The translations under genes were made by a program, and so were the position numbers. The notes beneath the pieces were generated by a model. The model worked only from the letters and a program-made list of their open reading frames with translations. It searched no databases and was not told where the DNA came from. From IMG/VR virus record IMGVR_UViG_3300033149_004356, positions 1 through 41,608 of that record: a DNA stretch of 41,608 bases. One strand, given 5' to 3'. This DNA is from a virus. This document shows, piece after piece, positions 1,207 to 41,608 of this stretch. Numbering within the stretch: position 1 is the first letter of the stretch; each line of letters begins with the position of its first letter.

Positions 1207-1376
1207 TTCAATATCCTTAATTTAAATATATTCCATTCCATTGGAGACACATTTATTTTTTTAATCACTAACTCATTCCCTGCTATTTTTCTAACTGTAA
1301 TTATTTCAAAGTATCTTGAATAAACAGCTTTATATAATTCGCCACTTTCAGACCAAATAATTACATCTCGTTTCAT
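1203..1376 (-). CDS. Hypothetical protein (57 aa)
   Basis: The frame is linked at both ends by ATGA overlaps: its ATG overlaps the stop of the deoxyribosyltransferase-like gene and its TGA overlaps the next ATG. The coupling is the best evidence that it is translated. The sequence is beta-rich with alternating hydrophobics (DVIIWSESGELYKAVYSRYF) and no recognised motif. Confidence 0.6.
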   Translation of the reverse strand: MKRDVIIWSESGELYKAVYSRYFEIITVRKIAGNELVIKKINVSPMEWNIFKLRILK

Positions 1377-1840
1377 AATCCATGTCTCAATCCAAATTCT
1401 TTTTTGATAAATAATTCAAATTCTGTCCTAGTACTGAATATTCTTGTAGCAAATTTTCGAATCCATGGGTGATAAGAAAATCTTTTAGTAATAACATACA
1501 CAGGAATTCTAAGTATTCTTGCAGCAAAAAAGATTTCCATAGACGTTCCAAAACTCGGAGAATCTAATACTGTAATAATCCCATCACTTTTACGAATCAT
1601 ATCTAAATCGTCCTCAACTATTTCAGTAGTATTTCGTTTCTTAAAGTATTCTTTTTGCTCTTTACTTCTATCTTTAAGTTTGTCTAAAATTCGAATATCA
1701 TTTCTATCATTATCATAAAATGGATTATCAAAATTAATATTATATTTGGCCTCAATCCTTAACTCCCATTTTCTGAATCTTTTTCTATCATAAAAATTAT
1801 GGGCTAAGTAAAATGTTTTCATTTCAACAATTTTCTCCAT
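1373..1840 (-). CDS. Nucleoside 2-deoxyribosyltransferase-like protein
   Basis: The 155-residue protein has the flavodoxin-like layout of this family: an N-terminal FYLAHNFYDR strand-loop, a central DLDMIRKSDGIITVLDSP segment where the Asp-rich strand end normally sits, and SFGTSMEIFFAAR, which resembles the (G)T..E(I/L) helix carrying the catalytic Glu. Known enzymes swap bases between deoxynucleosides or hydrolyse dNMPs (DNPH1 type). Close relatives include sensors and TIR-like NAD-binding folds, so the exact reaction is open. The start at 1840 has GGGGAGG six bases upstream. A second ATG (1822) overlaps the upstream stop as ATGA but has a poor SD. Confidence 0.6.
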   Translation of the reverse strand: MEKIVEMKTFYLAHNFYDRKRFRKWELRIEAKYNINFDNPFYDNDRNDIRILDKLKDRSKEQKEYFKKRNTTEIVEDDLDMIRKSDGIITVLDSPSFGTSMEIFFAARILRIPVYVITKRFSYHPWIRKFATRIFSTRTEFELFIKKEFGLRHGL

Positions 1841-2115
1841 TTAAAGCCTCCCCACCTATACTTACATATTCTTTCAATTGAGATAAGCGTAATACTGAGT
1901 TCAATAGCACTTACTCCTAATGATATAAAAAGATTAGAAAGCATATACCCAATCATCATACATAAGATTGCAATTGTTTTAATGTAATAATGTGTGAGAG
2001 AAATCCCATCTGTCTGTTTTATCCTGAGTATCTTTTGTAACTGTCTAACACAAGACCACAAAAAACTTGTAATACCAATAGTAAAGAGTAAATCTATTAG
2101 TAAATTTAACTGCAT
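1819..2115 (-). CDS. SemiSWEET / PQ-loop-like membrane protein
   Basis: The 98-residue protein has three predicted membrane helices (about residues 5-22, 42-62 and 66-84). The stretch RQLQKILRIKQTDGISLT after helix 1 closely resembles the PQ-loop signature of SemiSWEET/MtN3 proteins, with R-Q in place of P-Q. Three helices in under 100 residues is exactly the SemiSWEET size. SemiSWEETs dimerise to pass sugars across the membrane. The basic C-terminus is expected to be cytosolic. The start overlaps the end of the polymerase gene by 10 bases. Sugar transport is inference from family resemblance. The altered PQ motif leaves room for another role such as membrane disturbance. Confidence 0.6.
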   Translation of the reverse strand: MQLNLLIDLLFTIGITSFLWSCVRQLQKILRIKQTDGISLTHYYIKTIAILCMMIGYMLSNLFISLGVSAIELSITLISIERICKYRWGGFKWRKLLK

Positions 2116-3920
2116 ACTATTTCCTCTAATTCTTTTTTAACTTTTTTATCTTGATTACCATGAGCCTCAGCCCAAGTTCTACCAAATTTTATATCAATTT
2201 CGATTGGAACTTTTAAGTCTTTTCCAGCCTTCAGCATTGATGACTTTATTATATCATAACAAGATTTGGAATACTTAATTGGACATGATACTAATACTTC
2301 ATCGTGAACAGTCAAAATCATCTTAGCTCCAAATGATTTTAGTTTTTTGTGCATTTTAATCATAGCATATTTTATAATATCAGCTGATGAGCCTTGTATA
2401 ATACTATTTATAGCACTTCGTATCTCAGCTCCTTGCTCATAGTCGTCTTTATGATAAAAGTGCTTAGAACATCTCCGTTTGCGTCCTGAAAGCGTTTGTA
2501 CATATCCAAGATTTCTAAATTGTTTCTCAGCATCTTCCCAAAATTGCTTAATTCCTGGATATGTTTCAAAATATTTATCAATATATCTTTGAGCATCTTC
2601 TTCTGAAACTTTAATTTGTTTTGCAAGTGTTTTATTTCTCATACCATATACGAGACCAAAATTAATAGTTTTTGCTTTCTGTCTCTCTATTCCAAGAGCA
2701 TTAGCTGTTTGTTGATGAATGTCTTTATTATTTATATAAGCATCGACAAGATTTAAGTCTTGACTGAAATGTGCCAATACTCTAAGTTCAATTTGCGAAT
2801 AGTCAGCACCAATTAAAATATGTCCATCTTCAGGTATAATCACTTTTCTTATTTCAAGGTCTTTGTCGTCTCGTGGAATATTTTGCATATTAGGCCTACT
2901 ACTGGAAAATCTTCCACTTACTGTTCCTGCTTGATTAAAAGCAGCAAAAATCTTACCCTTACGTTTTCCCGTTTTTTCACAAATTTCCCAATTTGTAGGG
3001 GTGAGAGCTGGAATAAATGTTGTAAGAATTTTATTATATTTTCTATATTCTAATAATAATTTAGCAGCTCCATTTATTACGGCATACTTTTCTAATACTT
3101 CTTTGTCAACTGAAGGAGCTCCAGTCTTTTCAGACTTTTTAATAATAGGCATATTTTGTTTTTCAATAAAATATTCTTTTAATTGTTTTGAACTATTAAA
3201 ATTAATATCACCCATTAATATTTTTAATCTTGAATTTGCACTATTTACTTTATCAGAACAAAGTTTACTTATTTTAAATACTTCATCTACATCGATAGTA
3301 ATTCCATTGATGTGCATATCAGCTACTACTTGCAACAATGGTCTTTCCATTTCAATATAAACTTTGTGACTTGGAAAATCTTTATGTAGCTCGCTACAAA
3401 GAAGATTATAAAGTTTTAAAGTATATTTAGCATCATCACAAGCATATTTTACTTTATCTTCTGACTCAAGGTCTGCAAAGTCAATTCTTTTCTTACCAGA
3501 ACCAAGTAACTCTTTGAGTTCAGTCATATTATAATTAAAATATTGTTTAGTTAATTTTTTAAGACCATGCATCATGTTTTCGTTTACAAGATTTGCTATG
3601 ATTACTGTGTCTTCACAACAAAAGTCTTCTGGAAATTCTACTCCATATTGTTTTAATACAGGAATATCAAAAGAAGAATTATGAAAAATTACATTACTGC
3701 ACTCAAACATAATCCAGTTTAAAAGGTTAAGTGCTTTATTTCTTGTCATATTTTTTAAAAAATTATCTTTTACAGGAATATAAAAAACGTTTTTATCAAA
3801 AGCAAAACTAAAACCTACCATAGTTTTGTCGGTCAAAGATACCGTTTCAGTATCTACAGCAACTGTTCTCGCTTTTTTCAAGTTATCGAGTAACTTATTT
3901 TCATAATCTATTATATACAT
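2106..3920 (-). CDS. polA: Family A DNA polymerase with 3'-5' exonuclease
   Basis: The 604-residue protein begins with a DEDD proofreading domain (D23-T-E25 in AVDTETVSL; NSSFDIPVL; YACDDAKYTLKLY) and continues with the family A palm and fingers. Motif A is ADYSQIELRVLAHFS, motif B RQKAKTINFGLVYGM and motif C LTVHDEVLVSC. There is no 5' nuclease domain, as is usual for phage enzymes. All catalytic acidic residues are present, so it should be active. It is the main replicative polymerase, and the SSB-like protein lies just upstream. The ATG at 3920 has AAAGAGG upstream. A hairpin separates it from the SSB gene. Confidence 0.97.
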   Translation of the reverse strand: MYIIDYENKLLDNLKKARTVAVDTETVSLTDKTMVGFSFAFDKNVFYIPVKDNFLKNMTRNKALNLLNWIMFECSNVIFHNSSFDIPVLKQYGVEFPEDFCCEDTVIIANLVNENMMHGLKKLTKQYFNYNMTELKELLGSGKKRIDFADLESEDKVKYACDDAKYTLKLYNLLCSELHKDFPSHKVYIEMERPLLQVVADMHINGITIDVDEVFKISKLCSDKVNSANSRLKILMGDINFNSSKQLKEYFIEKQNMPIIKKSEKTGAPSVDKEVLEKYAVINGAAKLLLEYRKYNKILTTFIPALTPTNWEICEKTGKRKGKIFAAFNQAGTVSGRFSSSRPNMQNIPRDDKDLEIRKVIIPEDGHILIGADYSQIELRVLAHFSQDLNLVDAYINNKDIHQQTANALGIERQKAKTINFGLVYGMRNKTLAKQIKVSEEDAQRYIDKYFETYPGIKQFWEDAEKQFRNLGYVQTLSGRKRRCSKHFYHKDDYEQGAEIRSAINSIIQGSSADIIKYAMIKMHKKLKSFGAKMILTVHDEVLVSCPIKYSKSCYDIIKSSMLKAGKDLKVPIEIDIKFGRTWAEAHGNQDKKVKKELEEIVCS

Positions 3921-5548: not shown

Positions 5549-5806
5549 TTACCATTCTTCTTGTTTATTATTAATATCAGCAATATTTATTGGTACAACA
5601 TCACCAAGTACTTCTCTATCTATATTTTTGAGATTTGGATATAAATGTTTATCTCTGCTTGGATATTTCTTAAGGTTTGTACCACACCTTTTACAACAAC
5701 CATATTTATCTAAAATATTTTTGCCATTAAGTCTACAATACCAACAAGTAATTTTTTTATTTCCACTTATAACTATGTTTTTAGTCTTATTTAAAGTTTT
5801 CTGCAT
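5549..5806 (-). CDS. Zinc-ribbon protein (85 aa)
   Basis: CWYC near residue 22 and CCKRC near residue 38 form a four-cysteine ribbon. A polar tail ends in NKQEEW. An alternative GTG start lies three codons upstream (5815). The ATG at 5806 was chosen. Likely DNA-, RNA- or protein-binding. Family not recognised. Confidence 0.6.
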   Translation of the reverse strand: MQKTLNKTKNIVISGNKKITCWYCRLNGKNILDKYGCCKRCGTNLKKYPSRDKHLYPNLKNIDREVLGDVVPINIADINNKQEEW

Positions 5807-7747: not shown

Positions 7748-8668
7748 TTACACCTCTTTTACAGCATGTCGTTTACATATATCATTTTTATATTTTTTTG
7801 GTATTTTATCTATCCATTTTTGTATCTGTTTATCAGTACATTTTATCCTTGCAATATGCCCCAAGAGTTGTTTAACTAGTCTCCCATTGTCTATAATGTT
7901 GAAACTTCCACACCATAAAGGGAATACTGAAAAATCTAAATCAGTTCCTTGTAAATCAGCTTTTCGAAAATCAGCTTTTGGTAAATTAGCTTCTCGTAAA
8001 TCAGCTTCTCGTAAATCAGCTTCTCGTAAATCAGCTCTTCGTAAATCAGCTTTTCGTAAATCAGCTCCCTGTAAATCAGCTCTTCGTAAATCAGCTCCCT
8101 GTAAATCAACTCTCTGTAAATTGACCCTTTGTAAATTAGCTTCTCGTAAATTGACTTTTTGTAAATTAGCTTCTCGTAAATTGACTTTTTGTAAATTAGC
8201 CTCCTGTAAATCAGCTCCCTGTAAATCAGCTTTTCGTAAATCAGCTCTTCGTAAATTAGTTTCCTGTAAATTAGCTTCCCATAAATCAACTCTCTGTAAA
8301 TTGACCCTTTGTAAATTAGCTTCTCGTAAATTGACTTTTTGTAAATTAGCTCCCTGTAAACCAGCTCCCTGTAAATCAGCTTCTCGTAAATCAGCTCTTC
8401 GTAAATTAGTTTCCTGTAAATTAGCTTCTCGTAAATTAGCTTTTCGTAAATTAATTTCTCGTAAATTAGCTCTCTGTAAATTAACTTCTCGTAAATTAGC
8501 TTCTTGTAAATCAGCTCCCCATAAATCAGCTTTTTGTAAATCAGCTCCCTGTAAATTGGCTTCTCGTAAATCAGCTCCCCATAAATTAGCTTCTCGTAAA
8601 TCAGCTCCCTGTAAATCAGCTCCTCGTAAATCAGCTTTAGGTTTTATTATATAATTATTAACTTTCAT
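7748..8668 (-). CDS. Long pentapeptide-repeat protein
   Basis: A 306-residue protein. Residues 12 to about 240 consist of roughly 45 A(D/N)Lxx repeats (ADLRGADLQGADLRE...), which fold as a right-handed quadrilateral beta-helix shaped like a DNA rod. The last 60 residues form a separate domain (PLWCGSFNIIDNG and later DKQIQKWIDKIPKKY). Some members of the family (Qnr, MfpA) mimic DNA and bind gyrase. Most phage members are unexplained. The 15-bp DNA period makes the gene prone to slip, so repeat number may vary between strains. It overlaps the SWIM gene by 11 bases. Confidence 0.9.
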   Translation of the reverse strand: MKVNNYIIKPKADLRGADLQGADLREANLWGADLREANLQGADLQKADLWGADLQEANLREVNLQRANLREINLRKANLREANLQETNLRRADLREADLQGAGLQGANLQKVNLREANLQRVNLQRVDLWEANLQETNLRRADLRKADLQGADLQEANLQKVNLREANLQKVNLREANLQRVNLQRVDLQGADLRRADLQGADLRKADLRRADLREADLREADLREANLPKADFRKADLQGTDLDFSVFPLWCGSFNIIDNGRLVKQLLGHIARIKCTDKQIQKWIDKIPKKYKNDICKRHAVKEV

Positions 8669-20852: not shown

Positions 20853-20905
20853 CTTTCATTTTAATTTTTTATTTTTAATCATTATAAAAATTTTTTTATA
20901 GAAAA

Positions 20906-20939
20906 CTTTAAATATTATTAAAAACATAATTATAAGTGG
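20906..20939 (+). promoter_or_regulatory. Rightward promoter, archaeal-like
   Basis: GAAAA, then CTTTAAATA (20906-20914) look like BRE plus TATA. TTATAAGTGG follows at 20930-20939, the mirror image of the leftward motif. The leader ORF of the terminase begins 30 bases later. The shared motif may be the initiator or an operator that controls both directions. Confidence 0.6.
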
Positions 20940-20968
20940 AATAATATAAAAATAAAAAAGGAGTGGTC

Positions 20969-22283
20969 ATGATAGACCGGGATTTGGTGGGTTAAGATTA
21001 CTAATTTAGTATTATCATTAGCGAGAGAATTTTTACCGCAACAATTAGAAACAATGTGGGCTGTAAAGAAAAATAGATACGTTCTATATTCTGGAGCAGT
21101 TCGTGCTGGTAAAACTCTTCTTGCTGCACATATTGCTATTAGGACTTGTATAGAAAATCCTAATTGTCAGGGCTTTATTGGCTCTTTAACTACACCTCAA
21201 CTTACAGATGTTGTATTTAAAGTATTTCAACAAGAACTTAAATTTTACCAAGATTTGCTTGACAAAAATAATATCTCATTACAAATTGCTAAAATGAAAT
21301 TTAGTAAAGGTGATATGAAAGCTATATTTTACAATGGTTCAGTAATTTACTTTAAATCTTGTGATGATGAAACTAAAATTAGAGGATATACATTAGATTT
21401 CGCAATTTTAGATGAACCAATTGAAATAGATGAAACTATATTTAAACAATTAATGAATCGTATCTCAGGCGGACATATAAATAACCCATTTATATTATTA
21501 ACAACTAATCCTGGAAGTCAGTTACATTGGATTTATAAATATTTCTTTAGAGAAGCGACTGAAGAGCATTATACTGTAGAAACAACTACTTACGATAATG
21601 TGTTACTCCCCCAATATAAAAAATATATTAAAGACTTAGAACAAAATTTAGATGAGGATTGGATAAGGAGATTTCTTAATGGAAAATGGGGAGCTTACTC
21701 TGGACAAATATATAAAAATTTTTCCTTAGACCGTCATACAGGGACTTACGCCAACTTTAACGATGTCAAGTATTTCGTTGCAGGAGTTGATTGGGGTAAT
21801 AGAAATCCATCATGTATCTTGGTGCTTGGAATCACAAAAGATAAAGAAGTAATAGTAGTAAAGGAATGGTATAGAAAGGGTGCAACTACGCCTCAAGTGG
21901 CAAAAAAATTACAGGAATATCATAAAATTTATAGTTTTAAAAAAGTATATATTGATGCTTCTCAACCAGATTTAATATTACAAACTTCAGATTTACAAGT
22001 TCCTGCTGAAAAATCAGAAAGAAAAGTAGAAGCAGGGATTGCCAAAATAAGAGGACTATTTAAACAAAATAAAATTCATATAGATATTAATTGTACAAAT
22101 TTAATAAGAGAACTACAAGCATATAGATATGAAAAAGATAAATTAAATAAAAACCCTACAGAAACACCGGTAAAACAAGATGACCATGCTCCAGATGCTC
22201 TTAGATATGGGCTAACTAACTATCGAGGCTTTAGAAGAGATAATTTACTTGGCTATGTAAAACGGGATTTGTGGGATTTTTAG
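20969..22283 (+). CDS. terL: Terminase large subunit, with recoded or non-AUG start
   Basis: The packaging motor. Walker A is SGAVRAGKT, Walker B FAILDEP, and the C-terminal RNase H-like nuclease has AGVDWG, VYIDAS and DDHAPDALRYG. The main frame is clearly coding upstream of its first ATG (21054): LAREFLPQQLETMWAV carries the usual Q-motif region. That frame has no ATG, GTG or TTG back to its stop at 20973. An ATG at 20969 with AAGGAG starts an 8-codon frame ending GGT TAA. A +1 shift there, or restart at ATT (20997) one base after the TAA, reaches the main frame and gives about 428-437 residues. The same layout occurs at the tail fibre gene. Confidence 0.92.
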
Positions 22284-38162: not shown

Positions 38163-39093
38163 ATGAAAATAAAAATTTTAAATAGGGGGTGTTAATATCA
38201 CTTGGTATGATACACAGACTGCAACTGACTGTATTACCTTTACTGAATGGAATAATATGGTCACTTATATACAACATAGTGCATGTACTGACTTTACAAT
38301 ATATGGTACATGTCCTAATACAAATCCGGTATTCAAATTTGGTGGCAACAATGACATTGAATTTGATGAAGACCGTGCAATAATGATTGATGATGATGAA
38401 ACTTACATTGGTCATGGAGCTGGAGATTCGATTAATGGCGGAGTTAATAATACTCTTATTGGTCATGATGCTGGAAATGCACTAACTACTGGAGATAATA
38501 ATACTTTTATAGGACAAGGTGCAGGGCAATCATCAGAGCCAACATTGACTGGGTGTGTCCTTATTGGTAAAGAAGCCGGTCTTAATGCAGCAACAAATAA
38601 TACTTTATACATAAATAATAATAATTCAGAATATCCACTAATTTACGGTGAATTTGCTAATGACACAGTTAAATTTGGAAATAACAGTAATGCTTGGTTT
38701 TTTAAATTTACAGTAAATGGTGTTACTTCAGAATTATATGGTGGTCAGGCAAGTGATAAACGCCTTAAACTTAGTGCAAATGACACAGATGGCGCTGACC
38801 AAGCTCATATAGTACTTAAAGGAACTGGTGGCAATTTAGAGTTAATACATGGTAATGGTGACGCTGTAACAATTCATTCACATGATACACAAAATGTAAT
38901 GAAGTTTTGGTATAACGGTGGAATCCCAACAATAGAAACAACTTTATCAAATGGCGACTTACAACTATTGCCAAATGGAAGTGGGAATATAAGATTCGGC
39001 ACATATGCTGCAAAAGGTGCAGAGGCATTCGATGGTTTTATTACTATTAAAGATGCGGCAGGTAATACAAGAAAATTAATGACTTGTGCTTAA
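38163..39093 (+). CDS. Tail fibre / receptor-binding protein, with recoded or non-AUG start
   Basis: About 299-309 residues. The first 60 residues (NITWYDTQTATDCITFTEWN) form a base. Then NNTLIGHDAGNAL and NNTFIGQGAGQSS give the left-handed beta-roll of trimeric fibres and YadA-like heads, and the end GSGNIRFGTYAAKG plus IKDAAGNTRKLMTCA is a common fibre tip. The frame is coding well upstream of its first ATG (38257) but has no ATG, GTG or TTG. A 10-codon leader (ATG 38163, GAGG upstream) ends TGT TAA. A +1 shift there, or restart at ATC (38197) one base after TAA, opens the main frame, as at the terminase. Confidence 0.82.
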
Positions 39094-41293: not shown

Positions 41294-41608
41294 TTTTAAT
41301 TCTCTCCTTTATTTTTGTTGTAGATATTGATTTATCATAAGGTAACTGTACTATCTCTCCCTCATAATCATCAGGAATTATAGCATATTCTTGTAACTTA
41401 TCAGATACAAATACTTTATGATACTCAGAAAGACTGACTTTACTTCTATGATTCATACCAAATGGAATAATTCTTGAATGTAATGATAAATTAGCAATAA
41501 TTGAATATCTATCCAAATAATTCATAACAGGAAAATGCCCTTTATAATCTTTTATTACTCTATCTGAAAAAATTCCAATAAATAAAACATCACATTGCTT
41601 ACTTGCTG
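41283..41608 (-). CDS. Cytidylyltransferase, C-terminal part (continues at base 115 of the unit)
   Basis: This is the rest of the gene whose start is at 181. Bases 41495-41608 repeat 1-114. NYLDRYSIIANL, then KVFVSDKLQ and the closing STTKIKERIKN, where STTKIKER matches the ISTTxIxxR signature of the family. Full length is 130 residues. The stop overlaps the 88-aa membrane gene by 11 bases. Confidence 0.88.
   Translation of the reverse strand, partial: ASKQCDVLFIGIFSDRVIKDYKGHFPVMNYLDRYSIIANLSLHSRIIPFGMNHRSKVSLSEYHKVFVSDKLQEYAIIPDDYEGEIVQLPYDKSISTTKIKERIKNES
41495..41608. repeat. Right copy of the 114-bp terminal redundancy
   Basis: Identical to bases 1-114. Confidence 0.95.

Follow-up and report, generated by a model that had tools for sequence, protein, structure and literature searches.

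The gene for the large terminase (terL) in the viral DNA analysed here (the window, meaning the whole stretch of 41 608 nt) is preceded by a conserved element, a small hairpin set among G-rich tracts, which is previously undescribed and is most likely a cis-acting leader RNA of the packaging operon. Our overall explanation, to which we assign a probability of roughly 0.6, is that this RNA recruits the ribosome and that terL starts at a non-AUG codon.

Judged by its Pfam domains (Terminase_6N, Terminase_3 and Terminase_6C), TerL is a true large terminase. Its FLPxQ motif is invariant or nearly so among relatives, and in the window the motif (FLPQQ) precedes the first ATG, at 21054; translation must therefore start before 21030. 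Between the upstream in-frame TAG (20973) and FLPQQ there is no ATG, GTG or TTG. The first-pass annotation had correctly described the bases here as AAGGAG (20958-20963), a leader ATG, a TAA, one further base, and ATT in the terL frame. GGTGGG stands at 20986-20991, followed by five bases and then by ATT ACT from 20997. The features of the region are as follows.

20903-20914, plus strand: TATA box of archaeal type, AAACTTTAAATA, the presumed late-operon promoter
20960-20963, plus strand: first conserved G tract, GGAG (GG(A/C)G in relatives), invariant in 23 sequences
20964-20979, plus strand: hairpin UGGUC-AUGAUA-GACCG with the leader ATG in its loop; arms covary across two virus groups
20979-20991, plus strand: second conserved segment, GGG-ATTT-GGTGGG; GG...GGNGG in all members of both groups
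20969-20995, plus strand: leader ORF of the first-pass annotation, eight codons, ATG ATA GAC CGG GAT TTG GTG GGT TAA; not conserved
20997-22283, plus strand: terL, with a proposed ATT start at 20997 that aligns with a GTG in L017

The conserved element reads GG(A/C)G, a hairpin of 4-5 bp, GG, N3-8, and GGNGGG. What had been taken for a Shine-Dalgarno sequence, a leader start codon and a frameshift stimulator are, in the window, its first G tract, its hairpin loop and its second G-rich segment. TATA-like boxes precede it and terL or the terS gene follows, in one locus (L197) at a remote distance.

Searches of viral contigs with TerL gave a graded series of relatives, from 87% down to 44% identity. 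The element stands directly before terL in 15 of 18 TerL-related records, once in each bar one weak extra match. A more distant sister clade has ordinary ATG starts (one TTG) and lacks this element. A DNA pattern scan found it in L102, where neither TerL nor TerS resembles that of the window, and in this second TerL family all nine loci carry it (L190-L198, L190 being the same contig as L102). In most of these loci 8-70 nt separate it from terS, a gene with an ATG of its own; in L197 the distance is 1.6 kb, and the element there occupies noncoding DNA ahead of a second promoter-like sequence. Two further DNA pattern scans gave L251 as the sole new terminase-linked case, with the terS ATG 8 nt after GGTGGG, and the other matches were low-scoring and look like chance. 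ANMV-1 and Methanobacteriales vir249 are without the element. Since it is present also in the second group, L197 included, and in L251, its distribution ties it to the packaging operon rather than to any single gene or start codon.

Several observations were made beside this survey. In L022 (1830-1917) no normal start is available to terL ahead of its N terminus, and a G-rich leader with the hairpin UGGGG-CACAGUG-UCCCC precedes it; the model described below scores it weakly, and it is possibly a diverged variant of the element. The sister TerL clade (L027, L030-L034, L036, L131, L134 and L140) has a different structured leader, about 75 nt before terL, consisting of a GGATA/TATCC hairpin and then a helix enclosing a hairpin whose loop is palindromic (UGCA or UCGA). 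The arms of this helix are CAGAC/GUCUG, CAGUC/GACUG, CAAGC/GCUUG and CGGAC/GUCCG, and the AUG start (UUG in L140) touches the closing helix in most members. In this leader, 11 of 16 pairs are changed on either side. L251 has on its minus strand (1252-3537) a portal gene of 761 aa with an apparent intein, recognized by eye, whose insert runs from ACYDEKTETLTKDGW to VAIQGN.

The covariance model was made from 14 sequences including the window, so that the window's E-value of about 1e-7 (over 0.2 Mb), though far beyond chance, is not independent; the second group, which is outside the model, scores 2e-6 to 7e-3 in the same search. When 23 sequences are aligned to the model, 79.8% of helix cells are paired versus 63.2% after shuffling, and the covariation score is 0.451 versus 0.210 (neither value reached in 500 shuffles), and in 19 cells both sides have changed; when the partner is moved by one base, the share of paired cells falls to about 40%. 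Because this alignment was fitted to the structure, we also ran an alignment-free permutation test on fixed positions beside the G tracts, which, while ignoring the relatedness of the sequences as the shuffles do, found 90 of 115 pairs formed versus 69.9 expected (p = 0.00005), with each group significant alone. Close relatives within the second group have the arms UGAC/GUCG, CAGC/GCUG and CGUC/GACG. A first alignment by MAFFT placed the stem poorly and gave weak covariation, and the result stated here is that of the realignment to the model and the permutation test. L017 and L018 have one mismatch each and their isolated hairpins are not stable, and the best RNAfold structure of most isolated regions does not contain the element's hairpin. 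Rfam searches at gathering and loose thresholds returned nothing relevant, only a tRNA in the window and none in 11 relatives.

A longer hairpin that RNAfold proposes for the window (z -2.7) was rejected as not conserved, four relatives giving z -0.7 to +0.6 and unrelated folds.

The first-pass annotation had offered two ways into the terL frame, and they fared differently. One was a programmed +1 frameshift of the prfB kind on GGT-TAA that would join the leader ORF to terL. The window does have the exact geometry (AAGGAG, ATG, eight codons, GGT TAA and a +1 step into the open terL frame), and +1 frameshifting has a precedent in the haloarchaeal virus HSTV-2, where it has been reported (PMC8211752). 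Among 14 related terL genes, however, the leader ORF is absent or different: in L017 it is ATG TAA, with another stop directly before GTG, and L019, L082, L023 and L029 have no leader ATG. The distance from GGNGGG to terL falls in frame 0, 1 or 2 among relatives (0 in L020), and this spacing in all three frames argues against a shift site, which would have to keep frame. The second group, moreover, carries the element though it has no such start to explain. A conserved upstream frame with its stop at the shift site, a defining feature of the prfB kind, is thus not what we find, and GGU-UAA is not known as a high-efficiency +1 shift site. We regard the frameshift as highly improbable.

The other way, initiation at AUU, has held up, and terL probably starts at AUU 20997. 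The closest relative (L017, TerL 87% identical) has GTG exactly at the window's ATT codon (TAA GTG ACA AAC versus AAG ATT ACT AAT in the window, in each case 11 codons ahead of FLP). At this aligned position L018 likewise has ATT; 10 codons ahead of FLP stand TTG in L082, immediately preceded by TAA, and ATT in L019 and L021. Of the ATT triplets just after GGNGGG, 11 are in the terL frame and four are not (binomial p 0.002), a supporting count to which Ile codons near the start could contribute; in the second group ATT is also common after the element and is there not a start. AUU is not required in several members of the first group (L018, L019, L020, L021, L023 and L083-L086), where an ATG or GTG stands in frame inside the element or ahead of it. 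AUU starts are very rare, with one AUG-to-AUU switch per 61 358 ancestral AUG starts (PMC5622118).

A one-base assembly or sequencing indel would dispense with AUU, since the gene could then start at ATG 20969 and run through the element in frame. One base fewer would indeed give a good start, AAGGAG-5-ATG, and L083-L085 are open from the hairpin-loop ATG through the element. Yet L017 too is unreadable through the element, its leader ATG being followed at once by TAA, and offers GTG where the window has ATT; a second of the window's genes, an independent case, has ATC in place of ATG. We consider such an error unlikely. The second gene is the following.

38185-39093, plus strand: tail-fibre-like gene, with GGGGGTG at 38185-38191 and a proposed ATC start at 38197, where the orthologues L210 and L207 have an aligned ATG GCA TGG

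It had been noted that this gene repeats the geometry of terL. The arithmetic is right (ATG 38163 ... TAA, T, ATC 38197), but an ordinary start position explains it: L210 and L207 have ATG GCA TGG behind GAGGTAATTAAT or AAAGGTGTTTAA, and the window has ATC ACT TGG behind GGGGGTGTTAAT. The G-rich sequence and its spacing before the start are similar in the window and these relatives, and ATC is one substitution from their ATG. The gene thus appears to start at ATC 38197. In a reading of the gene list, with three related genomes compared, terL and the tail-fibre gene are the only ones clearly without a normal start, and AUU/AUC initiation is the reading that suits both best. Starts of this kind are a warning that gene-calling programs will shorten or displace the genes concerned.

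The ends of the window form an exact 114-bp repeat (1-114 and 41495-41608), and the window is therefore probably a complete tailed-virus genome with a circular map, although its database listing gives no completeness value. Its rightward packaging, capsid and tail genes form a long series in which terL is first, and as part of the best explanation we propose that the element's region is the leader of this late operon, on a transcript that would start from the promoter ahead of it. Archaeal-type TATA-like boxes number nine in the window versus 2.6 expected (none of 100 shuffles reaches nine), and such boxes occur upstream of the element in many relatives too. On the evidence of these boxes the host is probably an archaeon. 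No provirus, and so no named host, turned up when reference genomes were scanned with either TerL family, and phage records searched with the capsid, DNA polymerase and primase pointed to no host.

Two further features of the window were seen. A 52-nt stretch with a TATA box occurs at two sites, 5751-5802 (minus strand) and 20900-20953 (plus strand), that are 87% identical, and by this likeness is a duplicated promoter. At 7748-8668 (minus strand) there is a long pentapeptide-repeat protein (ADLxxADL), with other frames open as well.

In the mechanism that we propose, the ribosome would be recruited at the 3′ end of the element, with GGUGGG acting in the window's group as a Shine-Dalgarno-like sequence, and terL would start at the first suitable codon 3-15 bases downstream, AUU in the window and GUG, UUG, AUG or AUU in relatives. 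The hairpin may serve to expose or arrange the G-rich tracts, as a two-layer G-quadruplex or a protein site, and so set how strongly the packaging genes are expressed. Such a quadruplex could form from the four GG tracts, the last loop being a single base. A more specific version, in which hairpin and two-layer G-quadruplex make up a compact ribosome-recruiting RNA of archaeal tailed viruses that replaces the Shine-Dalgarno sequence and AUG and permits AUU or other non-AUG starts of the packaging gene, is offered only tentatively.

A natural swap bears on this function. L086 and L088 are syntenic and their TerL proteins are 93% identical; L086 has the element and no ATG, and L088 lacks the element, with about 30 nt deleted and AAGG...ATG instead (the swap is at L086 2900-2975). 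No match to the element was found anywhere in the 43-kb record of L088. This argues that in the first group the element does the work done elsewhere by an ordinary ribosome-binding site. With the element lost and an ordinary ATG gained in L088, the pair is a ready-made test of element function. Most terS genes of the second group possess an ATG of their own, 20-50 nt further on and in several cases accompanied by a Shine-Dalgarno-like sequence; this and the distance from any start in L197 argue that recruiting the ribosome is not the element's only role. Both groups would be compatible with a role in the elongation or stability of the transcript.

A role in elongation could also be the whole of the matter: a put- or nut-like leader RNA might act on RNA polymerase for the long late operon, the non-AUG terL start being a separate affair. 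In both groups the element stands at the 5′ start of the late operon and combines a hairpin with single-stranded conserved tracts, which agrees with this, as do L197 and the distance to terS, and the HK022 put RNA is a precedent for a leader RNA acting on polymerase (PMC9378689). Set against these points is L088, which manages without the element and has acquired a normal start in that position, and this implicates translation. No put- or nut-like element is known in archaea, as far as a non-exhaustive search shows. We consider this alternative doubtful, though less so than an indel.

An element beside terminase genes could instead mark the start of DNA packaging, a cos or pac site. It is present in one copy per genome, is GC-rich in an AT-rich genome, sits next to terL or ahead of terS in two groups whose terminases differ, and in L197 is apart from any gene start. 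But compensatory changes in the hairpin arms are the mark of an RNA, and the contig circularises through its 114-bp end repeat, away from the element. No virus that uses the same terminase for packaging should lack a cos or pac site, and the element is missing from L088 despite its near-identical TerL and syntenic flanks. A packaging site is thus quite unlikely, slightly more so than the indel.

Two other candidates were rejected. An intron or hop was considered because cutting the insert from L086 would restore ATG GAT, but the others have no conserved upstream ATG; a rolling-circle nick site, TAATATTAC, found after the element in L018 and L026, is not conserved.

Taken as a leader RNA that recruits the ribosome, the element may be compared with several known systems. 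Viral leader RNAs are, to our knowledge, almost unknown in archaeal viruses, and a covarying one common to two groups with different terminases implies a shared control step on the packaging operon. Like the prfB (RF2) +1 frameshift, the window has a short upstream frame ending in a stop with a Shine-Dalgarno-like sequence nearby, but its leader and frame are not conserved and it has no shift site of the CUU-UGA type. In HK022 put and lambda nut, too, a long viral operon begins with a small hairpin element that has conserved single-stranded tracts; their sequence and fold are, as far as compared, unrelated, and they serve early genes, not a late packaging operon. The structured mRNA leaders of Rfam share a covarying helix, backed by compensatory changes, upstream of a gene, although no Rfam family matches. 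Closest in the start codon itself are infC and pcnB of Escherichia coli, which likewise have AUU for AUG behind a G-rich Shine-Dalgarno-like sequence. In infC the AUU codon serves autoregulation by IF3, whereas the window's AUU would open a virus packaging gene, in a probably archaeal system, with a conserved hairpin element before the start.
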